Positions 25,673 through 39,690 of a DNA stretch of 64,000 bases are shown here, piece after piece. A program made the position numbers and the translations under genes. This stretch comes from Sedimenticola thiotaurini (GTDB lineage Bacteria; Pseudomonadota; Gammaproteobacteria; Chromatiales; Chromatiaceae). Location: the NCBI RefSeq assembly GCF_001007875.1, contig NZ_CP011412.1:1984001-2048000 (forward strand), read 5' to 3'. Numbering within the stretch: the first letter of the stretch is position 1; each line of letters begins with the position of its first letter. The notes beneath the pieces are model-generated. The model did not search any database, was not told where the DNA came from, and was given only the letters and a program-made list of their open reading frames with translations.

Positions 25673-26237
25673 GATGCGCTACCACCTCCTGATCGAGGCC
25701 GGGCTGCGGGTCCGGTTGCCCGTCGGAGATGGTCTCCTGAGTTACCGGTTGACCGGTGGTCGATTCGGTCTGGGCGGCCGCAGTAGCCGACCCGGACTCG
25801 TCCGACTCCAACTGCAGAGCGGCTTTCAGCCGCTCCTCCGCCATGGCCATCTGATGGCGCATATCCGCGGTGATAATGTCGCCCAGTTTGGTGAAGCTGG
25901 TGAAATCGTCCGCATAGTCATCCAGGCCGTCACAGACGTTGAAGGACTCCAGGTGAAACAGCTTCTGCAACGCCTGACGGCGTAACGCTTCACTCACCTG
26001 TTCCGACAGGAAACCGCTGTAATCGGATGACTCATCCAGGCTCTCCAGCGGCGGCATGTCCGCATCGGTCAGAGGTTCCGGCTCCGGCGCCGGTTCCGCG
26101 GCCGGCAACTGCGCTGCGGCACGCTGTGTCACCGGCTCAGGGGGTGATGAACCAGCGGCCTGTTTCAGACGCGACCAGCGCGACACAAAACCATCCCCCT
26201 GGTCATAATCCAGCAGCTCTTTCTCGTCCCGGCTCAT
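25665..26237 (-). CDS. DUF3306 domain protein
   Basis: A 190-aa protein of the DUF3306 family, recognised by the start MSRDEKELLDYDQGDGFVSRWSRLK and the conserved middle PPLESLDESSDYSGFLSEQVSEALRRQALQKLFHL followed by a DGLDDYADDFTSF segment. The C-terminal third is polar and glutamine/threonine-rich. No enzymatic motif is visible. I start at the ATG inside the ATGA overlap with DUF3305 (GGGAG upstream), not at the longer frame from 26270. DUF3305 and DUF3306 occur as a pair in formate dehydrogenase operons; their role is unknown, assumed to be in biogenesis. Confidence 0.82.
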   Translation of the reverse strand: MSRDEKELLDYDQGDGFVSRWSRLKQAAGSSPPEPVTQRAAAQLPAAEPAPEPEPLTDADMPPLESLDESSDYSGFLSEQVSEALRRQALQKLFHLESFNVCDGLDDYADDFTSFTKLGDIITADMRHQMAMAEERLKAALQLESDESGSATAAAQTESTTGQPVTQETISDGQPDPQPGLDQEVVAHHE

Positions 26238-26755
26238 GACGCCACGCTCCCGTTCTGATTCTGATGCCACTCGGTTCGCCGACGTTTTTTTCGCTTTTCC
26301 GGCACATACTGGTTCAGTACAAACAGCTCACACCAGCGGTACAGCTCCGCCGGAATGGCCACTGCGTAGACCACCTCGTCACCCTCCTGGTAGGCATTGG
26401 CCTCGTCAAAACTGAGGGTGACCAGAAAGGGGACCGGCACACCCTCCTCGTCCGCACGCGCCAACACGAACATCCGCGGCGAAGGGGAACAGAGATTGTG
26501 GTAATAGCTTTCACACTCATCCAGATGGAGTTGCAGACGGAAGCCGCTGTAGAGATAGTGGCGCAGTTCCCCCTCCTGGTGCACCAGGTGCACGGCCGGG
26601 GAGACCCCATCCGTCCAGTGGGAGGCGGTGACTCCGGTCGCTTCCCAGGCGTACCGCTGCCAGGGGCTGGTAGCGGGAGACCGCTGCATCACCACCGACA
26701 GGGAAAAAACCGTGGGCGACAGTTCAGCCAGATAATCGGTACCCTGCTCAGACAT
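26234..26755 (-). CDS. DUF3305 domain protein, first gene of the formate dehydrogenase operon
   Basis: A 173-aa cytoplasmic protein of the DUF3305 family: it begins with a beta-rich core (VFSLSVVMQRSPATSPWQRYAWEATGV) and contains YLYSGFRLQLHLDECESYYHNLCSPSPRMFVL, typical of the family, then a basic tail (EKRKKRRRTEW). Function unknown; it is paired with DUF3306 by a 4-bp overlap and heads a ten-gene minus-strand operon that ends with the HdrD-like gene. A sigma54-type promoter lies 40 bp upstream of its ATG, and GGAGGTGA lies close before the start. Confidence 0.82.
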   Translation of the reverse strand: MSEQGTDYLAELSPTVFSLSVVMQRSPATSPWQRYAWEATGVTASHWTDGVSPAVHLVHQEGELRHYLYSGFRLQLHLDECESYYHNLCSPSPRMFVLARADEEGVPVPFLVTLSFDEANAYQEGDEVVYAVAIPAELYRWCELFVLNQYVPEKRKKRRRTEWHQNQNGSVAS

Positions 26756-26794: not shown

Positions 26795-26810
26795 CGCAAG
26801 GACCATACCA
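26795..26810 (-). promoter_or_regulatory. Sigma54 (-24/-12) promoter of the formate dehydrogenase operon
   Basis: On the minus strand the sequence reads TGGTATGGTCCTTGCG: GG and GC dinucleotides with the canonical 10-bp spacing, and TTGC at -12, compared with consensus TGGCAC-N5-TTGC. It is 40 bp upstream of the DUF3305 start codon, leaving room for a transcription start about 12 bp downstream. Upstream heptamers at 26897-26925 would serve an enhancer-binding protein. Seen by eye, not tested. Confidence 0.7.
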
Positions 26811-26896
26811 GTCGCGCTATTCAGCCGCTGAATCAGCAGCGATCAGATCCCGCGGATCAACCGGGCCGCTCGGCAACCTGAAAAATTGCGGCAAAA

Positions 26897-26925
26897 TGTC
26901 ACAGCCGGTCCGGATTACTGGGACA
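26897..26925. promoter_or_regulatory. Paired heptamers TGTCACA / TGGGACA, candidate enhancer-binding sites for the formate operon
   Basis: TGTCACA (26897-26903) and TGGGACA (26919-26925) lie 22 bp apart, about two helical turns, some 87-115 bp upstream of the sigma54 element at 26795-26810. The same two heptamers form a 17-bp inverted repeat in the intergenic region of the NtrC-type regulator and mobB (35896-35912). The left heptamer touches the first stem of the moaA riboswitch on the other strand. Confidence 0.55.
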
Positions 26926-27032
26926 AATAACACCACTCCTCCCCGACATCCGGCACACCATTCGGGAAAAAACGCCCGGATCAACTCCAGTGGCTGGCAG
27001 CCTCCCCGGCAAAGAGTGCACCGGACCGGCTG
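26902..27032 (+). ncRNA. Molybdenum-cofactor (Moco) riboswitch candidate upstream of moaA
   Basis: A 12-bp perfect outer stem is formed by CAGCCGGTCCGG (26902-26913) and CCGGACCGGCTG (27021-27032). Inside are CCACT/AGTGG (26933-26937 with 26989-26993), ATCCGG/CCGGAT (26948-26953 with 26976-26981) and a region CTCCCCGGCAAAG with a GNRA-like GCAA. It lies in the 5' leader of moaA, where Moco RNA is known in gammaproteobacteria. The inner segment CAGCCTCC (26998-27005) is perfectly complementary to GGAGGCTG (27074-27081) outside the outer stem, a plausible switch pairing. Just before the start codon, CTCTC/GAGAG (27090-27101) overlaps the AGGAG ribosome binding site. I could not compare it with the family model. 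Confidence 0.65.
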
Positions 27033-27109
27033 CCGTGCCGGAATAACCCTAGTAATCAACTATGGTATTTACCGGAGGCTGAATCTACACTCTCCCGAGA
27101 GGAGAAACT

Positions 27110-28141
27110 ATGACATCATCCGGACCCAGTGATCGCGACCACACCAGTGAGCCGAACAGACTGATCGATCGGTTCGGCCGCGAGATCAAGTACCTGCGCA
27201 TCTCGGTTACCGACCGGTGTGATCTGCGCTGTGTCTACTGCATGTCAGAGGATATGCAGTTTGTCCCCCGCTCCCAGCTGCTCACCCTGGAGGAGCTCTA
27301 CCGGGTCGGTAAAACTTTCGTGGAACTGGGAGTCAACAAGATCCGCATCACCGGCGGCGAACCCCTGACCCGACGCAATATCCTGCAACTGTTCCACGCC
27401 CTGGGGCAGTTGGAAGGGCTGGACGATTTCACCCTCACCACCAACGCCACCCAGTTGCCCCGTTATGCCCAGGAGTTAAAGGCGGCGGGCGTCAACCGGA
27501 TCAACATCAGCCTGGACACCCTGCAGCCGGAGCGCTTCCGAGCCATCACCCGCACCGGCGAACTGCAGAACACCCTGGATGGTATTGATGCCGCACTGCA
27601 GGCCGGTTTTGATCGCATCAAGATCAATGCGGTGATCCTGAAGCACCGCAATCACGACGAAGTGGTGGATCTGGTCCGGTTCTGCCAGGAACGGGGATTA
27701 GATATCAGCTTCATTGAAGAGATGCCCCTGGGGGTGATCAGCGAACATGACCGGGCCGAGGCCTACTACTCCAGCGACCAGATCCTGGGGGATCTGCAAC
27801 AGGTCTACCGGATGGTGCCTACCACGGAGACCACCGGCGGTCCGTCACGCTATTACCGGCTCGGTGACAGCGAGACCCGGGTGGGTTTCATCTCGCCCCA
27901 CAGCCACAACTTCTGCGACAGCTGCAACCGGGTACGCATGACCGCCGAAGGCCGGCTGCTGCTCTGCCTGGGTCAGGAGCACTCCATGGATCTGCGCCGG
28001 GTGCTGCGGGCCAATCCCCTGGATGACGCGCCCCTGCGTGCCGCCATCCACGCCTCCATGAAGATAAAACCCAAAGGTCACGAGTTTGATCTCACCAGCC
28101 AGCCGGTGCTGTTCCGGCACATGAACGCTACCGGCGGTTAA
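27110..28141 (+). CDS. moaA: GTP 3',8-cyclase MoaA (first step of molybdopterin synthesis)
   Basis: Radical-SAM enzyme that with MoaC converts GTP to cyclic pyranopterin monophosphate; 343 aa, normal length. The SAM cluster motif CxxxCxxC is Cys37, Cys41, Cys44 (DRCDLRCVYCM); GGEPLTR follows in TGGEPLTRRNI; the C-terminal cluster motif is FCDSCNRVRMTAEGRLLLC; and the protein ends in the Gly-Gly tail (NATGG) known to be needed for activity. The GAGGAG ribosome binding site is 5-6 nt from the ATG. The leader carries a Moco riboswitch candidate. It is divergent from the formate dehydrogenase operon that needs the cofactor. moaC, moaD and moaE are not in the window. Confidence 0.95.
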   Translation: MTSSGPSDRDHTSEPNRLIDRFGREIKYLRISVTDRCDLRCVYCMSEDMQFVPRSQLLTLEELYRVGKTFVELGVNKIRITGGEPLTRRNILQLFHALGQLEGLDDFTLTTNATQLPRYAQELKAAGVNRINISLDTLQPERFRAITRTGELQNTLDGIDAALQAGFDRIKINAVILKHRNHDEVVDLVRFCQERGLDISFIEEMPLGVISEHDRAEAYYSSDQILGDLQQVYRMVPTTETTGGPSRYYRLGDSETRVGFISPHSHNFCDSCNRVRMTAEGRLLLCLGQEHSMDLRRVLRANPLDDAPLRAAIHASMKIKPKGHEFDLTSQPVLFRHMNATGG

Positions 28142-28167
28142 GCGTAATTTCCGATGATGTGAATCAA

Positions 28168-28194
28168 CGCACACTACGGCACATCGTGCCATAG
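28168..28194. promoter_or_regulatory. Palindrome between moaA and the following small gene
   Basis: GGCAC-ATC-GTGCC, extended imperfectly by CTA/TAG on its two sides, lies 30 bp after the moaA stop and 40 bp before the next ATG. There is no T-run, so it is weak as a terminator; it may be an operator or a stabilising 3' hairpin. Confidence 0.3.
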
Positions 28195-28230
28195 TTACTG
28201 GTGAGAGTATCCAACCGGAGGGATCTAGCC

Positions 28231-28506
28231 ATGCTTACTTTTGAAGACTGCGTCGGCCTCTGTGATCTGGATGAAGATGAGATAAAGGCCATTGCCGAGC
28301 ATGAACATGTCCCGGAGATCGTCGCGCTGGAGTTAGCCCAGTATCTTATTCGTCTGCCAGACGGAACAATTGCCATCAAGCGCATGATTATTGAGGATAT
28401 TCAGCACGCCAGGGAGAGCAACAACCCGGACCATGCCAAGCTACTGCAAAATGTACTGAAACATTTTATAGCCAGTCACCCGGACTTCGAATCCTACAAA
28501 TCCTGA
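28231..28506 (+). CDS. Conserved small hypothetical protein (91 aa)
   Basis: A small acidic, helical cytoplasmic protein beginning MLTFEDCVGLCDLDEDEIKAIAEHEH, with HVPEIVALELAQYLI and DIQHARESNN further on. I recall similar short proteins in sulfur-oxidising gammaproteobacteria, but no function. There are no catalytic motifs, signal or membrane span; two cysteines in the first 12 residues are not arranged as a metal site. A GGAGGG ribosome binding site sits 8 nt before this ATG; the longer frame from 28201 ignores it. It stands alone downstream of moaA with 90 bp between. Confidence 0.75.
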   Translation: MLTFEDCVGLCDLDEDEIKAIAEHEHVPEIVALELAQYLIRLPDGTIAIKRMIIEDIQHARESNNPDHAKLLQNVLKHFIASHPDFESYKS

Positions 28507-28628
28507 CTCTGAATTCAACCAGGCCATTGACGCGGGCAGGCGGGCCGTTCCAAACCGACACCTGCCCCATCGACTTCAGCCCCGCCATATCTATTAACCG
28601 CTGAAAAGACAGCTCAACCTGTGCCTGG

Positions 28629-29273
28629 CTATAGGTAGACCCGTTGCCGATCACCCGGACTGTTACCGGGAGAAGCCGCGAATGGGAGTATCGGTCGTTC
28701 CAACGGTACGGCACGAATCACAAAGCGTTCCGGACCACCAGGCAGCCAGGCATCAAACGGGTAACAGGTGATCAGGGTCAGCAGGGTTTGCCCCTGATCC
28801 AGTAACCAAAGCTCACTTTTATCATGCACTTCGGCGCTGGCGACCGCGTAGCTCAGCCGGGCCCCCTTCAGGGTGACCAACTCAAGCCGGTCACCCGGCT
28901 GCAGCTGTTGCAGAAACCGAAAATGGGTATCCCGGTGTGCGCTGACCACGCTGTTCCCGGCAGCGCCCGGTTCGGCCGTACCGGCCATATGACCCGGCCC
29001 GAAAGCCAGGGTCCGACCACTTGCGCCGGCCAGGATAATCTGGTCCACACCGAGCCTGGGCACCTGCAGCCGGGCCAGCGGCCAGGTGTCGGCCCAGGGC
29101 CAGGGACGAACCCGTTCACCACCGGCCCGGGCGGTTTCCCAGGCTGACTGCAACAGGTACTGGGCTAACCAAACCTTCGCCTTGATATAACCGCCTTCGG
29201 CAATCTGCCAACCGCCGACAAGCAGCATGATGATAAGGATCGGATGGATTACTCTGGATGGGACAAAAGACAC
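28629..29273 (-). CDS. Class GN sortase of the proteobacterial dedicated sortase system
   Basis: Membrane-anchored transpeptidase, 214 aa, with an N-terminal membrane helix (IHPILIIMLLVGGWQIAEGG) and the sortase barrel. The catalytic triad is visible: His113 (VSAHRDTHF), Cys170 (TLITCYPFDAW) and Arg183 (GPERFVIRA). It would cut the single LPQTA-bearing target protein encoded nearby. I prefer a GTG start because GGGAG lies 6 nt upstream and homologues have short N-termini; an ATG at 29312 would add 13 residues. It is the last gene of the minus-strand pdsO-target-sortase run. Gram-negative sortases usually have one dedicated substrate, which fits. Confidence 0.88.
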   Translation of the reverse strand: MSFVPSRVIHPILIIMLLVGGWQIAEGGYIKAKVWLAQYLLQSAWETARAGGERVRPWPWADTWPLARLQVPRLGVDQIILAGASGRTLAFGPGHMAGTAEPGAAGNSVVSAHRDTHFRFLQQLQPGDRLELVTLKGARLSYAVASAEVHDKSELWLLDQGQTLLTLITCYPFDAWLPGGPERFVIRAVPLERPILPFAASPGNSPGDRQRVYL

Positions 29274-29370
29274 AACAGACTCCCGCTGAATGTTACAGAT
29301 GCCGGGCGGCACGGTGGGCAGTCCCGCCGCGCCGCCGACGGTTCAATCAAATGTGCAAACCGGATGCCGT

Positions 29371-29523
29371 TTAACGCCGCCCCGATTTTGCCGGTGCATT
29401 GCCCCGTCCACCACCCGAGAGTCCGCCAGTCTTGCTTGGCCAGTTACCACCGGGAAATCCCGTGGCCGGGCGGCCCCCGCTCTTCATACCACCACTACCC
29501 TTTGAACCGGTTGTTTTTGCCAT
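29371..29523 (-). CDS. Tiny Gly/Lys-rich protein (50 aa) between sortase and its target
   Basis: A 50-codon frame coding for a Gly/Ser/Lys/Arg-rich, low-complexity protein: it starts MAKTTGSKGSGGMKSGG, has FPGGNWPSKTGG in the middle and ends GGGRGNAPAKSGRR. A strong AAGGAGG lies 7 nt before the ATG, the best evidence that it is translated. The composition and the NWPSKTG/SGGGRGN pattern recall tiny basic proteins I have seen in marine gammaproteobacteria, function unknown. It has no signal peptide and no LPxTA. At about +10 net charge it might bind nucleic acid or polyanions; that is a guess. Confidence 0.65.
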   Translation of the reverse strand: MAKTTGSKGSGGMKSGGRPATGFPGGNWPSKTGGLSGGGRGNAPAKSGRR

Positions 29524-29605
29524 CTTGGCCTCCTTATTGATGCCGGGTCAGAAAGATCGACTTGGGGCGGTGATCCCCGGCCGCAACACCGCCCGTCGGG
29601 TTGTA

Positions 29606-31774
29606 TCAGCTGAACCGAAACCGCTTTCCATCCAGCCATTTTCGACTGAACCAGCCCAGCGTCAGCAGCAGCGCCCCCAACAGCAGTTGGAAATCGGCGG
29701 CGGTGGCGGTTTGGGGCAGGCTGCCGAACACCTTGTTAGCACGCCATCCCTGGGGCAGGTTGGTCGGCACCGCCTTGTTTTTCAGCTCCCGCTCTCCCGG
29801 TCGGGAGACCGTTTTATCCACAGCCACCAGGCTGGTGTAACGACTCACCAACTGGTGCGCCAGCGCCACCTCCAGCACCGCCTGGCGCACCGCTGCTTCC
29901 GCTACGCCCCGGGCCCGGCCATCCATCAGATCGGCGATCTTGCGCCGCGCCCAGAGCTGGTGGACACCGGATCGGGCTGATCCACCCCGCAGGATTACCT
30001 GCTGCTGCCAGGGCGTGCCGGCGGCACTGCCGGTCAGGGTTAGGGGCAGGTTCGACCGGGCCATTTTCAGCGCCACCAGCACCGGTTCCCCCTGGTAGAG
30101 ATCGGGGATACGGGCCGGCCACATCTCCACGCTCTGATCCTCCGGCCAGTGGATTTCGATATCGGTCAGGCGCGGCGTCTCCAGTTTGCTGAACAGGTTG
30201 GCCATCTTTTCACCCACTTCCGACACCTTGCCGATATAGGTGAAGGTGCCCCGGCCGAACCGGGCCGCCCGGGTCATGAAAAAACTGTTGGGGGCCGAGC
30301 CGATACCTACGGTGAACAACCGGCTGTCACCGAGTTGCTGATGGATCAGGCTGAACAGTGCCTGTTCATTACCCACGCTACCGTCAGTGAGGAACACCAC
30401 CTGGCGTAATATGCCCCGCTCCGCCTGCTGCCCCAGGGCCAATTGCAGGGCCGGCAACATCTCGGTGCCCCCATCCGCCACCAGGTGATCCACGTAGGCG
30501 TCAGCCCGACGCAGATTGTCCGGGGTCGCCGACACCGCCCGGGGAAACAGGGCAGATGTCTGGTGATTGAACTGGATCACGTTGAACCGGTCAGCCGGCT
30601 TCAGCCGCTGCAACGCCAGTTTGAGGGCCGCCCGGGCCTGGACAATGGAGGCACCGTGCATGGAGCCCGATGTGTCGATCACAAAGATCACTTCCCGCGG
30701 CATGGCTTGCGGCAGCGTCTCCGGCGCCAGTGGCGGCATCAGCATCAACAGGGCATACTCATTTCCCTGCCACTGCTCATTGAACAGCGCCGCCTGGGGT
30801 GCGTCCCCCGTCTGCGGCACCCAGACCAGTTCAAAGTCCCGGTTGGCGGGCACCGCCGTGTCGCGCAGCGCCAGATGGTAGACCCCGTTCTCATCATGCT
30901 GCTGTGTGATGGGGTGATAGACGCTCTCCAGGTGTGCCAGGGGCATTCCCGGATCGAGCCGGACAGTGATCGACACCGGATTGACAGGAGCTTCAGACGG
31001 ATCCAGCACCGGCGGGGTGATGCGTGCCGCATCGGGCACCTGTGGGGTATTCTGCGCCCAGCCGTTACCGGAGAACGCCGTCACCTGCTCCCTTCCCAGG
31101 GGAGTACCCGGGATGTAGCGGGGTGCCACCACCAGCGGAAAACGGAGCCTGAACTGCCCCTGGCTGTAGGCGATGGTCTGTTGATATTCAATCTCCACCT
31201 GTACCGTCTCACCCGGCGCAATATTGGCCACGGCAGTGGTGAAGATATTCGGGCGTTCCTGGCTCAGCAGGCTGGCCTTTTTACCCGCCCGCCGGGCCGC
31301 CTGGTAGGCTTTACGGGCCGCACCCTTCTCCCGGATCTCTCCCTCGATCAGGCGCTCACCGATACGCAGACGCATCCGATCCACGGCCGCATGCTCCGGC
31401 AGTGGAAACACATAGGTACCTTCGACCCATTCAGTGCCGGGATTGCGAAAGCGCTGGCTGACCAGCACCCGGGCGATCATACCGCTGATGTTCATCTGCA
31501 CATCGCTCTGCAGCACCGGTGCATCTACTGCCACACCGCCACTGGCCAGTTTCAGCAGCAATGAACCCCGCTGTACCTGACCAGGCTCGATCCGGTTCTG
31601 TGCAGCTGCTGTGGGGTCCGGGGGGGCAATGCTCTCGGCCGCTTCCACCGGGCTCATCAGGAGAAACGCCAACAGTCCCAGTAACAGGGAGGTCACCACC
31701 CCCGCCAGCAGGGAGATCAGCGAGGTAAACCACATATCCCGCCCCAGATGATTAATCGTTTTTTGCTCGGCCAT
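29606..31774 (-). CDS. Sortase target protein with VIT and von Willebrand A domains (LPQTA sorting signal)
   Basis: Large envelope protein, 722 aa, of the marine proteobacterial sortase target family. After an N-terminal membrane segment (SLISLLAGVVTSLLLGLLAFLL) come a VIT domain (about residues 70-190, with FPLPEHAAVDRM and ERPNIFTTAVANI), a von Willebrand A domain (from about 315; metal site DTSGSMHG) and a C-terminal sorting signal: LPQTA at 686-690, a hydrophobic stretch (FQLLLGALLLTLGWF) and a basic end (RKWLDGKRFRF). I use the ATG giving MAEQKTINHLG; an upstream ATG at 31840 adds 22 polar residues. The adjacent sortase is its expected processor, giving attachment in or release from the envelope. 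Confidence 0.9.
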   Translation of the reverse strand: MAEQKTINHLGRDMWFTSLISLLAGVVTSLLLGLLAFLLMSPVEAAESIAPPDPTAAAQNRIEPGQVQRGSLLLKLASGGVAVDAPVLQSDVQMNISGMIARVLVSQRFRNPGTEWVEGTYVFPLPEHAAVDRMRLRIGERLIEGEIREKGAARKAYQAARRAGKKASLLSQERPNIFTTAVANIAPGETVQVEIEYQQTIAYSQGQFRLRFPLVVAPRYIPGTPLGREQVTAFSGNGWAQNTPQVPDAARITPPVLDPSEAPVNPVSITVRLDPGMPLAHLESVYHPITQQHDENGVYHLALRDTAVPANRDFELVWVPQTGDAPQAALFNEQWQGNEYALLMLMPPLAPETLPQAMPREVIFVIDTSGSMHGASIVQARAALKLALQRLKPADRFNVIQFNHQTSALFPRAVSATPDNLRRADAYVDHLVADGGTEMLPALQLALGQQAERGILRQVVFLTDGSVGNEQALFSLIHQQLGDSRLFTVGIGSAPNSFFMTRAARFGRGTFTYIGKVSEVGEKMANLFSKLETPRLTDIEIHWPEDQSVEMWPARIPDLYQGEPVLVALKMARSNLPLTLTGSAAGTPWQQQVILRGGSARSGVHQLWARRKIADLMDGRARGVAEAAVRQAVLEVALAHQLVSRYTSLVAVDKTVSRPGERELKNKAVPTNLPQGWRANKVFGSLPQTATAADFQLLLGALLLTLGWFSRKWLDGKRFRFS

Positions 31775-31913
31775 GACGCACCCCGCTGCTGTTTTTCTGT
31801 TTCTGATGTTGGCTGCCCGGCCGTCCCGGCCGAAGTTCATAGAGTTCCCGATGCATAGTCTCTGGCGAGCAGTAGAGAAACTGCTCGCTGAGGGGCTGGA
31901 TCAACTGGCTCAT
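31752..31913 (-). CDS. Candidate 53-aa ORF overlapping pdsO and the sortase target gene
   Basis: The frame starts at an ATG inside the pdsO stop (ATGA overlap) with GGAGGTG 4 nt upstream, and ends 23 bp inside the target gene. It codes for MSQLIQPLSEQFLYCSPETM, then a basic, glycine/glutamine-rich tail. The overlap pattern is typical of translational coupling and could carry ribosomes from pdsO to the target gene. However, the tail is low in complexity and I recognise no homologue, so it may be only a coupling leader or chance. Confidence 0.4.
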   Translation of the reverse strand: MSQLIQPLSEQFLYCSPETMHRELYELRPGRPGSQHQKQKNSSGVRHGRAKND

Positions 31914-32662
31914 GGGGCACCTCCAACCTGCAGACGGATCACCACCTGACGGTCATATACCAACCCCTCCGGGTCGTTGACGGAATAACGGGCCGCTGTC
32001 TCTCCGTGGGCCTGCCGGGAGATGCGGGCCGGCTGCACACCCTGTTGAATCAGGGCATGACTGACCACCTCGGCCCGCGCCGCACTCAACGCCTGATTAG
32101 CCCCCTGTCCGCCACGCCGGTCGGCATGGGCATGCAGCACGATCCGCCACTCATCCAGGGTTCGCAGCATGGCGGCCAGTTCGGCCAGATCCTGCCGATC
32201 TTCCGGCTCCAGGGTCGTTTCACCGGTGCGGAAATGGATACGCTGTACGAATCCCCGGGCGATCACCTCCAGCCGTTGCCGGTAGTCGGATTGTGCCGCC
32301 GCCAGTTGCCGGGTCAGCGTCTGCAGCTGCCCGCTTTTGACCCGCTCCGCCTGGCTCAACTGCGCCATCGCCTGCCGGGTACTGTGCAGATCCGCTTCCA
32401 GCCCCCGGTGACGGCCGAGCAGTCCGCCACCGGCGGCACCCACGATAAATCCGGGCGGTCCACCAATGATGGCCCCGGCGATGGCACCGATGCCGGCACC
32501 CTGCCAGGTTTCCCGGTAGTCGGTGGTATCGGCTGACTCTCCGCTCCAGGGCTGCTGCCACTGTTCCAGCCCCTGGGGGCTCTCCTGGTCACCCCCATAG
32601 GCGCTGGCGTTGCCCGCCAGCAGCATCCCGATCATCAACGAATTAACGAGTTGTCTGTTCAT
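31910..32662 (-). CDS. pdsO: PdsO, sortase-associated OmpA-like protein
   Basis: Envelope protein of 250 aa belonging to the OmpA-like family tied to the dedicated sortase system. A signal peptide ends near GNASAYGG; a glycine-rich, membrane-like stretch (AGIGAIAGAIIGGPPGFIVGAAGG) at about 52-75 is followed by a coiled region (75-125) and a C-terminal OmpA peptidoglycan-binding fold (about 135-245) with IHFRTGETTLEPEDR and the NQALSAARAEVV / ISRQAHGE pattern. It heads the minus-strand run to target and sortase. Four TGGCA-type elements and a sigma54-like sequence lie in its 338-bp upstream region, shared with the divergent regulator gene. Confidence 0.88.
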   Translation of the reverse strand: MNRQLVNSLMIGMLLAGNASAYGGDQESPQGLEQWQQPWSGESADTTDYRETWQGAGIGAIAGAIIGGPPGFIVGAAGGGLLGRHRGLEADLHSTRQAMAQLSQAERVKSGQLQTLTRQLAAAQSDYRQRLEVIARGFVQRIHFRTGETTLEPEDRQDLAELAAMLRTLDEWRIVLHAHADRRGGQGANQALSAARAEVVSHALIQQGVQPARISRQAHGETAARYSVNDPEGLVYDRQVVIRLQVGGAP

Positions 32663-33000
32663 CCCCTACTCCTGGTTGGCCCAGCGCACCTTCCCTGGTG
32701 AGACAGTCATCCTGACTTGCGCCGGTTGCTGGTTGTGTTGGCAGTGATTAAACAGGGCGGGGGTGGCAGATGGGTTGCACAGGCCGGGCAAGGTGGTGGC
32801 AGATTCGGGCAGAATTGTGGCAATTTGTCCAAACGGCGCCGGGAGAGTGGTACAAATCGGCCCATATCCTGCGAACTGCCCCTGGCGAGCCATCAGGGAC
32901 CTCACCCCAATATCCAGACAGAAAAGGGGGATAAAATCAGCGCGGTATGAAATTTGCCTGAGAATTCCGGGTCCAGCCGGCGAAACCAGGGAATTCAGCG
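32663..33000. promoter_or_regulatory. Divergent control region of pdsO and the HTH/molybdate-binding-like regulator, with repeated GGTGGCAGAT
   Basis: No gene is visible. GGTGGCAGAT occurs twice, at 32762-32771 and 32795-32804, exactly 33 bp (three turns) apart, and TGGCA recurs at 32739 and 32818. At 32816-32832, TGTGGCA-ATT-TGTCCAA resembles, with one mismatch per half, the heptamer palindrome found near mobB. These look like regulator sites (PdsR is an obvious candidate), but no match to a known box is claimed. Confidence 0.45.
32764..32779 (+). promoter_or_regulatory. Possible sigma54 element (TGGCAGATGGGTTGCA)
   Basis: GG and GC are spaced by 10 bp with TGGCA and TTGCA flanks, a close match to the -24/-12 consensus. 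It faces the HTH/molybdate-binding-like regulator gene but is about 230 bp from its start, and it overlaps one of the GGTGGCAGAT repeats, so it may be fortuitous. Confidence 0.35.
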
Positions 33001-33915
33001 ATGGTGGCCACAATGCCCCCCCAGAGCGATGCGTTTATGAGCGTCAAACAGGTGGCGGAGTATCTCCATCTGAACGAGAAGAAGATCTATGCACTGGTCA
33101 ACGAGGGGGGCATCCCGGCCACCAAGGTGACCGGCAAATGGATGTTTCCCCGGGAATTGGTGGATCGCTGGATGCTGGACTCCACCCATGGCGGCCTGCT
33201 CAGTGACCGGTTAGTGATCTCCGGTGGCGACGATCCACTGCTTTATCACCTGGTACAGGAGTTCGCCCGGGAACGGGGGAGCCACGCCCTGATCTGCTAC
33301 ACGCCAACCGGCACCCGACTGGGGCTGGACCTGCTGCAGTCCAACCGGGTGGACACCTGCGCCATCCACTGGGGGCCGGACGGAGAGAGCCACATCCGCC
33401 ATCCGGCCCTGTTGAGCCAATACTCCCAGCATCGCCAGTGGGTGCTGATCCGCGCCTTCAGGCGGGAACAGGGTCTGATGGTCAACCCCACTCTGGCAGC
33501 CGGGGAGAAGGAGCCGCAACAGCTGTTTGAGAAGCGCTATCGCTGGGTGTTGCGGCAGAGTGGATCGGGGGCACAACGATTCCTGCTGGAGCTGTTCAGC
33601 CATCACGGTGTCGATTGGGATCAGCTGAACTGCCTCACCACCGCACTCTCCGAACGGGAAGCGGCGGCGGCCATTGCCATGCGGCTGGCGGATGTTGCAC
33701 CCGGCACCCGGGCCACCGCGACGGGCTATGGTCTGGGGTATATCCCCTGCGGGCAGGTCTCGTTCGATCTGGTCCTGCCCCGGGCAATCTGGTTCAGAAA
33801 GCTGTTTCAGGAGCTGTTGGGACGCCTGAAGTCCCAACCCTGCCAGGCGATGGCCGACCTGTTGACCGGCTACGATCTGGAGGAGACCGGTCGCTTGATC
33901 TGGGGCGATGAGTAA
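33001..33915 (+). CDS. One-component regulator: excisionase-type HTH fused to molybdate-binding-like domain
   Basis: A 304-aa cytoplasmic protein. The N-terminal ~65 residues are a winged HTH of the excisionase/MerR-like type (MSVKQVAEYLHLNEKKIYALVNEGGIPATKVTGKWMFPRELVDRWM, starting at residue 13). Residues ~80-300 form a periplasmic-binding-protein fold of the kind grouped with molybdate-binding domains (LGLDLLQSNRVDTCAIHWG, RQSGSGAQRFLLELF, ATGYGLGYIPCGQVSFDLVL). It probably senses an oxyanion such as molybdate or tungstate and controls molybdoenzyme genes; this fits moaA, mobB and fdh nearby. The start could instead be 33013 or 33037; the HTH is complete in all cases. It splits the sortase locus in two. 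Confidence 0.82.
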   Translation: MVATMPPQSDAFMSVKQVAEYLHLNEKKIYALVNEGGIPATKVTGKWMFPRELVDRWMLDSTHGGLLSDRLVISGGDDPLLYHLVQEFARERGSHALICYTPTGTRLGLDLLQSNRVDTCAIHWGPDGESHIRHPALLSQYSQHRQWVLIRAFRREQGLMVNPTLAAGEKEPQQLFEKRYRWVLRQSGSGAQRFLLELFSHHGVDWDQLNCLTTALSEREAAAAIAMRLADVAPGTRATATGYGLGYIPCGQVSFDLVLPRAIWFRKLFQELLGRLKSQPCQAMADLLTGYDLEETGRLIWGDE

Positions 33916-33927
33916 CCCGGGGAATCC

Positions 33928-34176
33928 CTATTCGAGATGCTCCAGCCCCTTCAGGGCGTCTTCCAGAGGTTCGCCCTGCAGATAGCGGGAGCAGCGTTCA
34001 CGCCACTCGTCACGGGACATTTCTCCCTCAGCCAGCATCGCTGCCACTACCTGTCCCCAGCGCACCAGGTAGCTGTTTTTGTCCAGCAGGTTGGCGTGCT
34101 GTTCAAGCATATCCCGGCGCTGTTTGCCCAGGTCGTCCAGTTCATCTTCAACAATTAATCCGTGCTCATCGGTCAT
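33928..34176 (-). CDS. Small hypothetical protein (82 aa)
   Basis: A short acidic cytoplasmic protein beginning MTDEHGLIVEDELDDLGKQRRDMLEQHANLL, then YLVRWGQVVAAMLAEGEMSRDEWRERCSRYLQ. It is almost entirely helical, without signal, membrane segment or known motif. The ATG used here opens on the conserved-looking acidic stretch; an upstream start at 34251 would add 25 unlikely residues. It converges with the HTH regulator (12 bp between stops) and lies downstream of the NtrC-type regulator on the same strand, so it may belong to that transcript. I do not recognise a family. Confidence 0.65.
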   Translation of the reverse strand: MTDEHGLIVEDELDDLGKQRRDMLEQHANLLDKNSYLVRWGQVVAAMLAEGEMSRDEWRERCSRYLQGEPLEDALKGLEHLE

Positions 34177-34353
34177 AACAGTACCGCCTGTAAAACATCC
34201 ATAATCCTGATCCCTGCATGGATAGTATCCGCTCGCCGGTGCCAGGGCCAACTGAATGTGGGTTTTTGCTGTGGTGCTGATCGGCGGAGCAGCGAGCCGG
34301 TCCCACCTGATAGAGAGATCGTGCCGGACGTGACGGGGAAAGCGACGCTCTGT

Positions 34354-35691
34354 CTAGCCGTTCAACCCCCACGCCTGGACTTTTCGTTCCAGGGTTTTAC
34401 GGGATATACCCAGCAGCCGGGCCGCCGCCGACTTGTTTCCCCGCTCACTCTCCAGCACCCGCAGGATGTGCCGTTTTTCCACGCTCTCCAGTTGCAGGTC
34501 GTTATCATCCTCGCCCCCTGTGCCGGGTATCGAACTGCCGGGGTTAATACCCGCCAGGCATTGACTGGGAGTGCAGTTCAGCAACAGACAGCGCTCGATC
34601 ACATTCTTCAGTTCGCGCACATTGCCGGGCCAGTCATAACGCTCCAGGCAGGCCAGTTCAAAGGCGGAGAACTCCGGCCTGGCGACCCCCAGTTCCGCCG
34701 CCAGGGATTGGCTGAAATAGTCGGCCAGCACCGGAATATCACCAACCCGCTCCCGCAGTGCTGGCATGCGGATCGAGAGCACATTCAGGCGGTAGAAGAG
34801 ATCCTCCCGAAACTCGCCGCTGCGCACCCGCTCTTCCAGGTTCTGGTTGGTCGCGGCGATAATCCGAACCGCCACCGGCACCTCCTTGTTGGAGCCGACC
34901 GGACGCACGGTGCGCTCCTCCAATACCCGCAGCAGATGGGCCTGCATGGAGAGCGGCATCTCACCGATCTCATCCAGGAACAGGGTCCCTTCATTGGCAT
35001 AAGTGAAAAGTCCCTCACGGGCCTGGTGTGCCCCGGTAAAAGCCCCCCGGATATGGCCGAACAGCTCACTCTCCAGCAGTTCCGCAGTGATGGCACCGCA
35101 ATTCACCGGTACAAAACTGCCGGGTCGACCACTCCACTGGTGGATCGCCCGGGCAGCCAACTCCTTGCCGGTGCCGGACTCTCCCTCGATCAGTACGGTG
35201 GATGGCATCGGGGCGACCCGTTTAATCACCTGACAAAGATGGCGGATCAGTTCGCACTCACCCACCATGCCGGAACTGTCATAGAGATGATCCACCTGAC
35301 GCTGCAGCACATAGTTCTCCCGCTGCATTTTCTGACGATCCACGAAACGCTTGACCGCCGCCAGCATCTGCTCCATGCGAAACGGCTTCATGATGAAATC
35401 CTCGGCACCGGCCCGAAGTGCGGCGATGGCGGAGCCCAGGTCGGCGTTGGCGGTCATGAAGATGACTCCGGTGGCGGCACCCTGACCCCGTAGCGAAGTC
35501 ACCCACTCGACGCCACCACTGCCCGGCAAGCGGATATCCGCAATGATCAGATCAAAATAGCAGCGATCATTGAGAACCTCTGCAGCTGCGGCGCTCTCCG
35601 CCGTCTCCACCAGGCTGAAATAGTTTTTCAGACCGCGCTGCAGAAAACTGCGGGACTCCGGTTCGTGGTCCACAATCAGCACCGAAGTCAT
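34354..35691 (-). CDS. NtrC-family sigma54-dependent response regulator (orphan)
   Basis: Three-domain enhancer-binding protein, 445 aa. The receiver holds Asp52 (IIADIRLPG) and the pocket Lys in IMKPF; the AAA+ domain has Walker A GESGTGKE at 170-177, the sigma54-contact loop GAFTGA at 216-221 and Walker B LFLDEIGEM; the C-terminal Fis-type HTH ends in SAAARLLGISRKTLERKVQ. It activates sigma54 promoters. No kinase gene is adjacent. A 17-bp palindrome (35896-35912) is 205 bp upstream of its start, and sigma54 promoters precede mobB and the formate operon. I use the ATG giving MTSVLIVD, the usual receiver start; two longer starts exist (35724, 35805). Confidence 0.92.
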   Translation of the reverse strand: MTSVLIVDHEPESRSFLQRGLKNYFSLVETAESAAAAEVLNDRCYFDLIIADIRLPGSGGVEWVTSLRGQGAATGVIFMTANADLGSAIAALRAGAEDFIMKPFRMEQMLAAVKRFVDRQKMQRENYVLQRQVDHLYDSSGMVGECELIRHLCQVIKRVAPMPSTVLIEGESGTGKELAARAIHQWSGRPGSFVPVNCGAITAELLESELFGHIRGAFTGAHQAREGLFTYANEGTLFLDEIGEMPLSMQAHLLRVLEERTVRPVGSNKEVPVAVRIIAATNQNLEERVRSGEFREDLFYRLNVLSIRMPALRERVGDIPVLADYFSQSLAAELGVARPEFSAFELACLERYDWPGNVRELKNVIERCLLLNCTPSQCLAGINPGSSIPGTGGEDDNDLQLESVEKRHILRVLESERGNKSAAARLLGISRKTLERKVQAWGLNG

Positions 35692-35895
35692 GCGCGTCTC
35701 TGAATCGATCCTTCTGGGATCCATTTGATGCTCTGCCACTGTTGTCACCTTCCGTCTGGAATCCGGGAATGGATAAGCACGGGAACCGACCTGGCCCGTG
35801 GACATCTTGTTATTCTGAAAGCTTTATAAAAGATAGTGTGACCGATCAGTCAGGCCGCTGCAGAGGGGCGATAACTGCCCTGCGTCTCCCAAGTA

Positions 35896-35912
35896 TGGGA
35901 CATTTTGTCACA
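35896..35912. promoter_or_regulatory. 17-bp inverted repeat, candidate upstream activator site of the NtrC-type regulator
   Basis: TGGGACA-TTT-TGTCACA: the two halves are inverted repeats with 6 of 7 matching positions. It is 184 bp upstream of the sigma54 element of mobB and 205 bp from the regulator gene, a usual distance for an enhancer. A lone half-site TGGGACA follows at 36005-36011, and both heptamers recur at 26897-26925 ahead of the formate operon. Confidence 0.6.
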
Positions 35913-35958
35913 AATGCCAGTGGCCAAATGACGACAATCTGACCATACCACCGGAGGA

Positions 35959-36090
35959 TCAGCCTTCCGACCCGATCCTGCCCATGACAAACGGACCCGC
36001 CTGTTGGGACAAACAGCCCATTCTGCTGACTTTTTTCAGATTTCCGACCTGCATGGTCGACCCGGCTTTATACGGTTCCTGACAGATCAT
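35959..36090 (-). CDS. Candidate 43-aa cysteine-containing small ORF in the regulator-mobB gap
   Basis: The frame codes for MICQEPYKAGSTMQVGNLKK and then VSRMGCLSQQAGPFVMGRIG. With a TTG start at 36129 it would gain 13 residues including another cysteine (GASCMICQ), giving CxxC plus a third cysteine, as in a small metal-binding protein. The possible ribosome binding site (AAGGG) is distant. It lies in a region with regulatory sites on the other strand, so it may be chance; evidence is thin. Confidence 0.25.
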   Translation of the reverse strand: MICQEPYKAGSTMQVGNLKKVSRMGCLSQQAGPFVMGRIGSEG

Positions 36091-36095
36091 GCAAC

Positions 36096-36110
36096 TGGCA
36101 CCCTTATTGC
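36096..36110 (+). promoter_or_regulatory. Sigma54 (-24/-12) promoter of mobB
   Basis: TGGCACCCTTATTGC matches the consensus TGGCAC-N5-TTGC at every fixed position, with the required GG-N10-GC spacing. It lies 68 bp upstream of the mobB start and downstream of the palindrome at 35896-35912, next to the gene for a sigma54 activator. This is the best sigma54 match I found in the window. Confidence 0.82.
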
Positions 36111-36178
36111 TGATTAGATAACCGTGCAACCGTAAACAGGCTTCCCTATTCTGACAGCCGGGCCAGGACAGCAGACAT

Positions 36179-36748
36179 ATGATTGAATTTCCGCTGCCGA
36201 TTTTTGGATTCAGTGCCTTCAGCGGGACCGGCAAAACCCGCTTGCTGACCCAGGTGCTGCAGATACTGGGGCGACAGGGGCTGCGTATCGGTGCCGTCAA
36301 ACATGCCCATCACCGGTTCGAGGTGGACCACCCTCAGAGTGACAGCTACCAGCTGCGCATGGCGGGGGCCGACCAGATGCTGGTGGCATCCCCCAACCGC
36401 ATGGCCCTGGTGACCGAACTGGACGAAGCGGAACCGGAGCCCCGCCTGGCCGAACTGCTCAGGGTGCTGGATCCCTCCAGCCTGGATCTGGTACTGGTGG
36501 AGGGGTTCAAGAGAGAGCGTTTTCCCAAGATCGAGCTGCACCGGCCCAGCCTGGGTAAACGACTCCTCTACCCGGACGATCCGGACATTATCGCCATCGC
36601 CACCGATGGCCCGCTCACCACCCAGCCATGCCATATTCCGCTACTGAACCTGAACCAGCCGGACAGTATCTCCGACTTCCTGCTTGCACGCTGTTTCGGC
36701 CGTCCCGGGAAGCCGGCACCGGTCGTGCCGGAGTTCGGACAGGGTTAA
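36179..36748 (+). CDS. mobB: MobB, molybdopterin-guanine dinucleotide biosynthesis accessory GTPase
   Basis: P-loop protein of 189 aa: Walker A region GFSAFSGTGKT (residues 10-20), then IGAVKHAHHRFEVDHPQSDSYQLRMAGA, the MobB hallmark, and LVLVEGFKRERFPKIELHR. MobB binds GTP and assists MobA in forming the guanine dinucleotide form of the molybdenum cofactor used by formate dehydrogenase. mobA is not in the window. A consensus sigma54 promoter precedes it. A 7-bp hairpin CCCGGCA/TGCCGGG lies just after the stop without a T-run. The sortase regulator pdsR follows 120 bp later but probably has its own promoter. Confidence 0.9.
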   Translation: MIEFPLPIFGFSAFSGTGKTRLLTQVLQILGRQGLRIGAVKHAHHRFEVDHPQSDSYQLRMAGADQMLVASPNRMALVTELDEAEPEPRLAELLRVLDPSSLDLVLVEGFKRERFPKIELHRPSLGKRLLYPDDPDIIAIATDGPLTTQPCHIPLLNLNQPDSISDFLLARCFGRPGKPAPVVPEFGQG

Positions 36749-36868
36749 CCCGGCATCCCGACCCGGTCTGCCGGGCAGGTATTCTGTGGGTGAGTTAACG
36801 CCACACACCACTTATTGCCAAGGGTCGATATGGTGTAAAGTGCAGTGCAAAAAGCGCACGCTGACACC

Positions 36869-37579
36869 ATGAAAAAACTGATAGCCATTGTTGAAGACGA
36901 ACCCGCCATCCGGGAAAACTATGCCGACCTGTTACGTCGTGAAGGTTACGAGGTGCGAGGCTATGCCTCGCGCCAGGAGGCGGACGCAGCGTTTCGTGAA
37001 CAACTGCCTGACCTGGCCATTCTGGATATCGGCCTGGATGATGAAATGGAGGGTGGATTCACCCTGTGCCGTGAACTGCGTGCCCGCTCCAGCACCCTGC
37101 CGATCATCTTCCTCACTGCCCGGGACAGCGAACTGGATGCCGTATCCGGTCTGCGTTTGGGGGCGGATGACTACCTGACCAAGGACATCACGTTGGCCCA
37201 CCTGGCGGCCCGTATCTCCGCTCTGTTTCGTCGTATGGAAGCACTCAGCCAACCGGTCCAGGAGGAGAATATCATTCAGCGCGGCCCCCTGAAGCTGGAT
37301 CTGGACCGGCTGCAGGTGAGTTGGCAAGCGACACCGATCGACCTGACCCTGACCGAATTCTGGTTTGTCCACGCCCTCTGTCAGCGACCGGGTCACGTGC
37401 GCAGCCGGGATCAGCTGATGGAGGCCGCCAATATCCTGGTGGATGCCACCAGCATCAGCACCCATATCAAGCGTATCCGGCGGAAATTCGAAGAGTGCGA
37501 TCCGCAGTTCAACGCCATCGAGACCGTCTACGGCATCGGTTATCGCTGGCAAAACAGTAACCCCACCGCCTCGGGATGA
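36869..37579 (+). CDS. pdsR: PdsR, response regulator of the dedicated sortase system
   Basis: OmpR-type response regulator, 236 aa: a receiver with Asp53 (AILDIGLDDEMEGG) and Lys in DYLTKDITL, and a C-terminal winged helix with SRDQLMEAANILVDATSISTHIKRIRRKF and VYGIGYRW. The extended loop LDDEMEGGFTLCRELRAR after the phospho-site is typical of the subfamily that accompanies proteobacterial sortases. It overlaps pdsS by 4 bp, so the pair is co-translated. Likely targets are the pdsO and sortase genes 4 kb away on the other strand; repeats upstream of pdsO are candidate sites. I start at MKKLIAIVEDE; a GTG 24 bp upstream is less likely. Confidence 0.9.
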   Translation: MKKLIAIVEDEPAIRENYADLLRREGYEVRGYASRQEADAAFREQLPDLAILDIGLDDEMEGGFTLCRELRARSSTLPIIFLTARDSELDAVSGLRLGADDYLTKDITLAHLAARISALFRRMEALSQPVQEENIIQRGPLKLDLDRLQVSWQATPIDLTLTEFWFVHALCQRPGHVRSRDQLMEAANILVDATSISTHIKRIRRKFEECDPQFNAIETVYGIGYRWQNSNPTASG

Positions 37580-39690
37580 GCCAAAAGCGCCGCTTTTCCC
37601 AGAGTATCCGCTTCAAGCTGCTGCTGGTGGCACTCGCCCTGCTGGCGATTCCCTGGGCCGGCTACCGTTACCTGCAGGAGACCGAGCGATTCCTGCGCCA
37701 GACCCAGGAGACCATGCTGCTGGGAACGGCCCAGGCGGTGGCCGCCATCCTGCACAACAGCAGCGCCATGAGCCGCTCCTCCCGCCTGCCGTCAGGTGGC
37801 TCAGCGGAACCTTTGCAGTATGTGAATCAGCTGGAACAGCCGATCCAGCCGGATGGCTACAGCGAGGAGTGGCAGCCCTACCTCGGTAATCTGCAACGCT
37901 ACCCGGAGCCGGATAAGTGGCTGTTCGAGGGTATCCTGGGCGAATACGGCGACTACCTCTACCTACTGCTGCGTGTGCAGGATCACCAGGTTCGCTATCG
38001 CCCACCGGGCAACACCCGCCTGGACCAGGGGGACTATGTGGAGCTCCGCCTCACCGCCAGGACCGGGGAACCGGTCCGCTACCGGATCGCCCCCACCGGC
38101 CCCGGCTATGTCACGGTGCGCCGGATGCCGAACGACAGCGAAGCGCCGTTGCCAATCGGCCGGGAAGACCGCATCCGGGGCGGCTGGCAGACCTCGGAGA
38201 GCGGCTACACCCTGGAACTGAAGATCCCCCAATACCTGGTTGGGGAGCAGATCGCCATCACGGTGGCAGACCTGCACGACGGCAGCGGATCATCAACTTA
38301 CCATCGGGTAAATTCCACCGGCCCTGGGCAACCGCCTCCACTGGGACGTATCGTGCGCCCCGACCCGGAGATCGGTCGCCTGATCGGAGGTCTGGAACAT
38401 GAGAACGCCCGCATCTGGGTGATCAACAACCAGCGCCTGGTGCTGGCCAAACGGGGCCGCCTGCAACCGCCGGAATCGATCACCGACGACAGCGACTCCC
38501 TGCGCATCTCGCCGTTGCAACCCCTGTTGCGACTGGTACTGGATCAGCCCAGCACCAATTTCCAGGACGACCTCTCCCGCAGCGCCCGCCTGACCGGGCC
38601 CGAGATCGACGCCGCGCTGGCGGGCCAGCCACAATCACGCCGGCGCAGCACACCGGACCAGCGGGCGGTTATTCTCTCCGCCGCCTGGCCGATCCAATCA
38701 TCCAGCGGCGTCACCGGTGCGGTGCTGGTGGAGCAGACCACCAACCAGATCCTCACCCTGCAGAACCGGGCGCTGGAACAGATCAGCGGCATCACCCTGG
38801 TGCTGTTTCTGTTCATCGGGCTGGCGATCCTCGGCTTCGCCAGCCTGCTGACCAGCCGGATACACCGCCTCAGTCGGCGGGTCGACAAGGCGGTAACCGC
38901 CGATGGGCGCATACTGGGCACACTGGAGCCGGACCGTTCGGCGGATGAGATCGGCGACCTGAGCCGCAGCTTCTCCGGGGTGCTGAACCGACTGGCCGAG
39001 TACAACCGCTACCTGGAGGCGATGGCGTCAAGACTCGCCCACGAGTTCCGCACACCGCTGACCATCGTCAGCTCCTCGTTGGAGAATCTGCAGGGCAACA
39101 ACGTACCGGAAGATCAACAGCGCTATATCCGGCGCGCCCAGGAGGGAGTGGAACGGCTCGGCCTGATCCTGCATCGCATGCGCGAGGCGACCCGACTGGA
39201 GCAACAGCTGCTCCAGACCGAGCTGGTCGCGTTCGATCTTGGCGGGTTGCTGGATATGGCCCTGGAGGGCTACCGGGGTGCCTTTCCCGAGGTGGCGTTC
39301 GAACTGGAGCGGTGCCCGGAGCCGATCGTGATCCAGGGCGCTCCCGACCTGATCAGTCAGGCCCTGGATAAACTGATCAGCAATGCAGTGGATTTCCACC
39401 AGACCGGTACACCGATCCGGCTGATCCTGGAAAGAGTGGACCAGCAACAGGTTCTGTTGAGTGTCTGCAACAGCGGCCCGGCCCTCCCCCCGGGGATGGA
39501 GCAGGAGCTGTTTTCATCCATGGTGTCGATCCGTAAAAAGAGCAGCGACGAACCGCACCTGGGGCTGGGTCTCTACCTGGTGCGCCTGATCAGCGAGTTT
39601 CACGGTGGTCATGCCGAGGCGGTCACACTGGAGACACCTGCCGGGGTGGCGTTCCGGCTGTTTTTCCCGGTCGCACAGCCGTCCCGTTAG
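37576..39690 (+). CDS. pdsS: PdsS, sensor histidine kinase of the dedicated sortase system
   Basis: Membrane kinase, 704 aa. The first membrane helix is near residues 13-30, a large periplasmic sensor spans about 40-400, and the second helix is 404-426. The sensor's middle (about 95-245) has a beta-sandwich look similar to carbohydrate-binding domains (WLFEGILGEYGDYLYLLLRVQDH, YTLELKIPQYLVG), suggesting a cell-surface polysaccharide signal. Then come HAMP (about 427-475), HisKA with His489 (RLAHEFRTPLT), and a HATPase domain (LGLGLYLVRLISEFHGG). The length and architecture match the sortase-associated kinase family. Its stop is 5 bp before the second repeat array begins. Confidence 0.9.
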   Translation: MSQKRRFSQSIRFKLLLVALALLAIPWAGYRYLQETERFLRQTQETMLLGTAQAVAAILHNSSAMSRSSRLPSGGSAEPLQYVNQLEQPIQPDGYSEEWQPYLGNLQRYPEPDKWLFEGILGEYGDYLYLLLRVQDHQVRYRPPGNTRLDQGDYVELRLTARTGEPVRYRIAPTGPGYVTVRRMPNDSEAPLPIGREDRIRGGWQTSESGYTLELKIPQYLVGEQIAITVADLHDGSGSSTYHRVNSTGPGQPPPLGRIVRPDPEIGRLIGGLEHENARIWVINNQRLVLAKRGRLQPPESITDDSDSLRISPLQPLLRLVLDQPSTNFQDDLSRSARLTGPEIDAALAGQPQSRRRSTPDQRAVILSAAWPIQSSSGVTGAVLVEQTTNQILTLQNRALEQISGITLVLFLFIGLAILGFASLLTSRIHRLSRRVDKAVTADGRILGTLEPDRSADEIGDLSRSFSGVLNRLAEYNRYLEAMASRLAHEFRTPLTIVSSSLENLQGNNVPEDQQRYIRRAQEGVERLGLILHRMREATRLEQQLLQTELVAFDLGGLLDMALEGYRGAFPEVAFELERCPEPIVIQGAPDLISQALDKLISNAVDFHQTGTPIRLILERVDQQQVLLSVCNSGPALPPGMEQELFSSMVSIRKKSSDEPHLGLGLYLVRLISEFHGGHAEAVTLETPAGVAFRLFFPVAQPSR

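Follow-up and report, generated by a model that had tools for sequence, protein, structure and literature searches.

A 64,000-nucleotide stretch of the 3.96-Mb genome of Sedimenticola thiotaurini (contig NZ_CP011412.1, positions 1,984,001 to 2,048,000; hereafter the window) carries the gene of a regulator, here called REG, which is very probably a dedicated sigma54 activator of formate dehydrogenase synthesis and cofactor supply. From a comparison of its locus with those of relatives we infer that REG binds paired 17-bp palindromes of the form TGNGWCA-WWW-TGWCNCA, offset from each other by 32-34 bp and followed after about 60-200 bp by a GG-N10-GC promoter, and that its AAA+ ring would remodel RNA polymerase-sigma54 at the formate dehydrogenase (fdh) operon and at mobB, or at tupABC-mobA-mobB in many relatives. 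This wiring appears to have been kept across many related bacteria despite repeated loss of the partner sensor. The features that carry this reading are the following.

34354-35691, minus strand: REG, an activator of REC-AAA+(GAFTGA)-HTH_8 architecture with the receiver pair DH in place of DD
26796-26810, minus strand: predicted sigma54 -24/-12 element of the fdh operon, TGGTATGGTCCTTGC, a GG-N10-GC match conserved in Sedimenticola
26887-26903, minus strand: predicted fdh enhancer site A, the 17-bp palindrome TGTGACATTTTGCCGCA, invariant in all 17 columns in 7/7 aligned Sedimenticola loci
26919-26935, minus strand: predicted fdh enhancer site B, TGGTGTTATTTGTCCCA, a degenerate palindrome at an offset of 32 bp to site A
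35896-35912, plus strand: predicted enhancer site A in the gap between REG and mobB, the 17-bp palindrome TGGGACATTTTGTCACA, conserved
35930-35946, plus strand: predicted enhancer site B in the same gap, degenerate, 34 bp beyond site A
36096-36110, plus strand: predicted sigma54 -24/-12 element of mobB, TGGCACCCTTATTGC, with zero mismatches to the consensus

Both GG-N10-GC elements had been pointed out in a preliminary description of the window and were found with the same letters at the same positions. When as many as two mismatches are allowed, TGGCAC-N5-TTGC has 76 matches in the window, and only the mobB element, described there as a perfect consensus match, has none; the 17-bp palindrome with its 3-bp spacer in the REG-mobB gap is likewise present and conserved. 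At fdh, the heptamers TGTCACA and TGGGACA had been taken as a pair 22 bp apart; both heptamers exist, but the pair as a unit gives way to two palindromes 32 bp apart. TGTCACA (26897-26903) is the right arm of the palindrome on 26887-26903, which reads TGCGGCAAAATGTCACA and was found by genome search to be the same motif as the one at 35896-35912, and TGGGACA (26919-26925) is one arm of the degenerate second copy. The -24/-12 element forms the second conserved island of the Sedimenticola alignment at fdh, and at mobB both TGGCAY-N5-TTGC and the palindrome with at most one mismatch, the threshold used for palindrome counts below, were present in 8/8 Sedimenticola loci. A third TGGGACA (36005) was unconserved across the aligned Sedimenticola loci and was dropped.

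The distance from palindrome centre to promoter is 85 bp at fdh in the window and mostly 60-130 bp elsewhere, and 192 bp at mobB with mostly 90-200 bp elsewhere; outliers over all loci span 40 to 367 bp. Two dimer sites upstream of a promoter are the usual layout for a sigma54 activator. As evidenced by the analysis of second-site offsets, for which L112-L130 and L150-L159 were excluded from the REG set, the highest score fell at -32 for fdh (26 loci) and at +34 for mob (33 loci), although half-site overlaps at +/-10 likewise scored high. The three-base spacer, which the pattern leaves unconstrained, is almost all A/T across 53 sites.

By themselves, neither the heptamers nor the promoter match at fdh rise above chance level, and it is the comparison between genomes that makes them real. 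The fdh -24/-12 element carries two mismatches, and the 76 such matches in the window compare with 81 expected; TGGGACA occurs 7 times in the window versus 11.5 expected, TGTCACA 6 times versus 7.2. Zero-mismatch TGNGNCA-N3-TGNCNCA is found at 5 places in the genome versus 1 for a reversed-pattern control, and two of the five are the fdh and mobB promoters. The other three (L013, L015 and L103) were rejected as targets, as the only one-mismatch -24/-12 element in the 3 kb covered at each lay about 570 bp away, at L013.

For the counts within and outside the genus, an upstream region had to measure 250 bp or more and its match had to begin by residue 25; L062 and L068, which duplicate L040 and L042, were dropped. 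The palindrome pattern was defined from the two sites of the window; for the -24/-12 element the wider TGGYAC was adopted once the matches in Sedimenticola and at other loci were known, and the shuffles used the same pattern. Outside the genus, ahead of the DUF3305 gene, the first of the fdh operon, the -24/-12 element was present in 32/32 loci (shuffle mean 1.15, largest 4) and the palindrome in 19/32 (0.60, largest 5), and upstream of REG the palindrome was found in 15/27 (0.36, largest 3). Missing conservation of the heptamers in orthologous promoters had been named beforehand as grounds for giving up the proposal; the palindrome and the -24/-12 element alike are conserved upstream of fdh and mobB and exceed the shuffles, in Sedimenticola as well as outside it. 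Five control sets were near chance for the palindrome, with a single occurrence each ahead of fdhA (of 25), the polyferredoxin gene (of 29), fdhB (of 25), torD (of 13) and the gene of a neighbouring regulator with HTH_17 and PBP_like domains (HTH/PBP; of 49). Four of them were near chance for the -24/-12 element as well (fdhA 3/25, shuffle mean 0.62, largest 4; polyferredoxin 1/29; fdhB 0/25; HTH/PBP 3/49, shuffle mean 1.60), torD being the exception.

In a wider set of genomes, the region divergent from REG held the -24/-12 element in 60/66 cases (shuffles 3.3) and the palindrome in 51/66 (shuffles 2.0), a count that excluded two short regions and ten members of a paralogue clade, beside which both elements scored 0/10. 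Twenty further fdh upstream regions included 15 from REG-bearing genomes, with the -24/-12 element in 15/15 and the palindrome in 5/15; four of these (L175, L176, L177 and L181) are contigs already counted as L061, L081, L080 and L055, and their exclusion leaves 11/11 and 3/11. Two genomes of one genus (97-99% complete) with DUF3305 and no REG match at 1e-130 showed neither element at fdh. Three other genomes were scored as lacking REG at this cut-off: a contig of the same length as that of G066 carries a REG truncated by the contig end (L074), G004 is a 65% complete genome, and G101 has one-mismatch matches to both elements. Among 210 genomes, REG and DUF3305 occurred together in 49, REG only in 4, DUF3305 only in 5 and neither in 152, at a REG cut-off of 1e-155 that was picked after the match list was known. 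In many loci REG lies between its putative targets in the order fdh-moaA-HTH/PBP-(kinase)-REG-tup/mob, and REG is accompanied by fdh genes in relatives such as Sedimenticola, the symbiont of Solemya velum and one uncultured Cocleimonas. Conservation, control genes and co-occurrence thus support the earlier proposal that REG may control formate oxidation and its cofactor supply.

Two further promoters of the window come into question as targets.

32816-32832, plus strand: predicted enhancer site A ahead of the HTH/PBP gene, TGTGGCAATTTGTCCAA, conserved in Sedimenticola
32848-32864, plus strand: predicted enhancer site B ahead of the HTH/PBP gene, TGGTACAAATCGGCCCA, 32 bp beyond site A
32943-32957, plus strand: GG-N10-GC element of the HTH/PBP gene, CGGTATGAAATTTGC, identified by visual inspection of the alignment
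23981-23995, minus strand: predicted internal -24/-12 element ahead of torD, TGGCCCGCCCATTGC

In Sedimenticola, REG would also activate the HTH/PBP gene, which is probably a third target in this genus and, together with the internal torD promoter, probably belongs to the regulon. The upstream palindrome was found in 6/7 Sedimenticola loci versus 0.18 in shuffles, and its 1/49 outside the genus equals the chance level. The GG-N10-GC element aligns in 6/7 Sedimenticola loci, the L031 copy being displaced by an insert (by eye, no shuffle test). For torD, the -24/-12 element was present in 6/6 Sedimenticola loci and in 5/13 outside the genus versus 0.39 in shuffles (largest 2), a real excess. Alternatively, the palindromes might be bound not by REG but by the HTH/PBP regulator, which could, for instance, sense molybdate, tungstate or pterin. 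Its gene lies in the same stretch in 10 of the 14 loci found via REG, and in Sedimenticola a palindrome stands upstream of its own gene. Such a palindrome is not, however, a feature of this gene beyond Sedimenticola, and in G047, where the best HTH/PBP match reaches only 34%, one-mismatch palindromes are nevertheless found near REG and moaA. Moreover, site pairs that precede sigma54 promoters by about 60-200 bp are what one expects of an AAA+ activator, not of a one-component HTH protein, and we consider binding by the HTH/PBP regulator quite unlikely.

REG itself shows the domain order REC-Sigma54_activat-HTH_8 (receiver PF00072; PF00158 with an E-value of 1.7e-68; Fis-type HTH PF02954) and retains the GAFTGA, Walker A/B and HTH motifs that mark an NtrC-class sigma54-dependent enhancer-binding protein; one rpoN match was found in the genome. 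Its receiver reads DH/D/T/K, so that the acidic pair expected of a response regulator is broken. The preliminary description had called REG an orphan, and indeed no cognate kinase adjoins it in the window, the closest match in the genome to the kinase of relatives being one of 32% that covers the kinase core only. To this we add that, as judged from the comparison of orthologues, REG is an orphan by loss and the kinase-less state is secondary. Of 65 orthologues scored in relatives (10 paralogues excluded), 43 adjoin a kinase that combines Cache, HAMP, HisKA and ATPase domains. The REG set comprised matches starting by residue 5 and ending at residue 430 or later, with an identity of at least 48%, and merging of identical proteins reduced it from 89 to 78, of which three without downstream sequence were excluded. 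In the remaining 75 rows, receivers with a kinase were 53 canonical and 0 degenerate, those without were 4 canonical and 18 degenerate; that 10 paralogues are among the 53 has to be set against this count. On a quick tree of REG, which left out the receiver columns and carries a long-branch warning, the kinase label changes 15 times, 8 of these forced by starred branches. Eight independent pairs gave a mean of 5.5 in the same direction and 0 in the opposite one (median p 0.031, range 0.031-0.125).

The ancestral REG would thus have served as response regulator to a membrane kinase whose Cache domain lies in the periplasm, and a small carboxylate such as formate is our guess for its signal; note that the predicted structure of the sensor of the relatives' kinase has a mean pLDDT (predicted local distance difference test) score of 57, with residues 219-327 below 50. 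As in the lineage of the window the kinase is gone and the acidic pair reads DH, REG probably works there without phosphorylation. One might instead suppose that REG is decaying in the kinase-less lineages and that control of these promoters is lost, as receiver decay and several long branches among the kinase-less rows would suggest. Upstream of the 18 kinase-less, receiver-degenerate REGs, however, the -24/-12 element is present in 14 and the palindrome in 12, and the proteins retain their ATPase and HTH motifs: across the kinase-less REGs the Walker and HTH motifs are kept with small substitutions, and GAFTGA is intact in all except L149, which has GAYTGA. Loss of control is therefore very unlikely. 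It is conceivable, if rather doubtful, that REG was turned several times from a kinase-controlled into a phosphorylation-independent activator and that in these lineages control now lies with cofactor status, which the adjacent HTH/PBP protein would sense in concert with REG; metal-cofactor supply and no periplasmic signal would then switch on fdh.

Several observations weigh against REG as the dedicated activator. The palindrome is absent at 13/32 DUF3305 and 12/27 REG upstream regions outside the genus and at 10 of the 15 further fdh regions of REG-bearing genomes; all six fdh regions of genus g7 lack it, Cocleimonas loci show the -24/-12 element alone at fdh, and no palindrome stands beside the torD element in the Sedimenticola loci. 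The palindrome is without clear genome-wide excess, and the case therefore rests on position and conservation. Because the Y of TGGYAC was picked after viewing the matches, the -24/-12 pattern is not fully independent, and since most loci come from related Gammaproteobacteria, neither are the counts. The kinase-less L041, L073, L122 and L140 have canonical receivers, and L036 and L053, among the 18 degenerate ones, deviate only at the Thr/Ser position. Finally, about 20 other proteins of the genome match REG across the AAA+ domain. That one of these drives sigma54-dependent fdh and mobB promoters and that REG, with its degenerate receiver, is merely adjacent is nevertheless highly improbable, as REG is linked to and co-occurs with fdh, keeps its AAA+ and HTH motifs even where the receiver has decayed, and the sites are absent beside the paralogue clade. 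As a separate observation, genus g7 (L037, L111-L130 and L160) mostly has REG together with the kinase, and the promoter next to REG has one palindrome or a pair of them.

The promoter adjoining REG precedes tupABC-mobA-mobB in L037, L039, L042 and others, mobA-mobB elsewhere and tupABC-mobB in L038. Since this arrangement recurs in many relatives, the older regulon would cover tungstate uptake and the assembly of the cofactor along with formate dehydrogenase, and by gene-order comparison the mobB of the window is a remnant of the tupABC-mobA-mobB target. The assignment of the relatives' transporter follows from matches below the model cut-offs: TupA matched only the tungstate-binding TupA model NF041772 (236 bits, cut-off 400), TupB had the tungstate permease NF041773 as its second-best match behind a general permease model (186 bits, cut-off 320), and TupC matched many ATPase models, with 110 bits for the tungstate model at a cut-off of 400. 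The tupABC genes of S. thiotaurini itself, located elsewhere in the genome by a TupA match, were rejected as a target, with no palindrome of up to one mismatch in the surrounding 10 kb. Four palindromes with two mismatches lie in this stretch, all more than 3 kb from tupA, and the nearest upstream -24/-12 element on the same strand has two mismatches and is more than 700 bp away. These tupABC genes (L104, 1581-9500) are found near genes for a 616-residue aldehyde ferredoxin oxidoreductase-like protein, an Fe-S protein and a permease and a moeA-like gene, all named by eye.

With regulators of the NtrC, ZraR and NtrC1 types REG has in common the REC-AAA+-HTH_8 architecture and paired palindromic enhancers, which for REG are predicted; unlike these, its proposed targets are formate dehydrogenase and cofactor genes, and its receiver is often degenerate. 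Its best match among solved structures is the NtrC family protein 4l4u over residues 3-443, followed by 3dzd, 1ny5 and ZraR 1ojl. In the best 25 of 118 NCBIfam models matched, REG stays under the curated cut-off, AtoC being the top one with 387 of 714 bits. FhlA of enterobacteria, a one-component formate sensor controlling formate hydrogenlyase, is a sigma54 activator for formate metabolism, as proposed for REG, but the N-terminus of REG is a receiver (PF00072), and the FhlA model matched over residues 119-444 only, the AAA+ and HTH part.

In Geobacter sulfurreducens, a respiratory formate dehydrogenase operon (GSU0777-0781) is listed with an RpoN promoter in the primer-extension section of PMC2725144, which ties no activator or cofactor genes to it. 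Sigma54-linked formate dehydrogenase is thus known in kind from that section, and the variant is new; among the titles and passages covered in an open-licence library we found no description of such a regulon. TunR was not found there either, and Cache-type formate receptors turned up in the search results alone. In Methylorubrum extorquens, moeA1-mobB-tupBCA clusters tungstate uptake and mobB for a tungsten formate dehydrogenase, MobB acting in tungsten cofactor assembly for the enzyme, and the passages of PMC13197769 cited here describe no sigma54 or dedicated activator for the cluster. The relevant passages elsewhere name pyruvate-formate lyases in the sigma54 regulome of Desulfovibrio (PMC4641369) and give only a slight fitness drop on formate for rpoN of Cupriavidus (PMC11540253). 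Formate oxidation is reported for symbionts of lucinid clams (PMC11171427). A defined activator, site and target set make the control of formate oxidation directly testable, and if the enzyme is coupled to the uptake of tungstate and the assembly of the cofactor, this would account for the joint production of a metal enzyme and the metal supply it needs. The repeated loss of the kinase, accompanied by decay of the receiver but with promoters and ATPase preserved, amounts to a replicated natural experiment on two-component regulators turning orphan.

The genes of the locus follow the order fdhCBA-torD-polyferredoxin-DUF3306-DUF3305 (minus strand), moaA, HTH/PBP, REG (minus strand) and mobB.

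18198-19361, minus strand: formate dehydrogenase gamma subunit, a cytochrome b (TIGR01583, over cut-off)
19438-20067, minus strand: formate dehydrogenase beta subunit (NF038355 FDH3_beta, over cut-off)
20084-23005, minus strand: formate dehydrogenase catalytic subunit (best NCBIfam match TIGR01591, under its cut-off)
23288-23953, minus strand: torD, a TorD/NarJ-type chaperone gene (PF02613)
24050-25672, minus strand: polyferredoxin-like protein with 4Fe-4S domains (domain matches)
25665-26270, minus strand: DUF3306 gene (PF11748)
26234-26755, minus strand: DUF3305 gene (PF11749)
27110-28141, plus strand: moaA (TIGR02666), divergent to the fdh operon
33001-33915, plus strand: HTH/PBP regulator (PF12728, PF12727)
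36179-36748, plus strand: mobB (TIGR00176), in relatives the last gene of tupABC-mobA-mobB or mobA-mobB

By eye, the translation of the catalytic subunit shows a twin-arginine (Tat) signal and a Cys active site (RICHSTT). The DUF3305 gene of one metagenome-assembled genome (G005:C48:9343-9819) has an internal TGA. Upstream of moaA, a match resembling a -24/-12 element was present in 13/33 loci, a count without shuffle control, and near its start, at about 27045-27075, a further block, CCCTAGTAA...TATGGTATTT, is strongly conserved and does not match the GG-N10-GC type. A Proteobacterial dedicated sortase system at 28629-32662 and 36845-39690, with a class GN sortase, a target protein, a PdsO-like protein (under cut-off) and a dedicated response regulator and kinase, is interrupted by the block of HTH/PBP, REG and mobB; as the system flanks this block on both sides, the kinase at 37576 is part of it.

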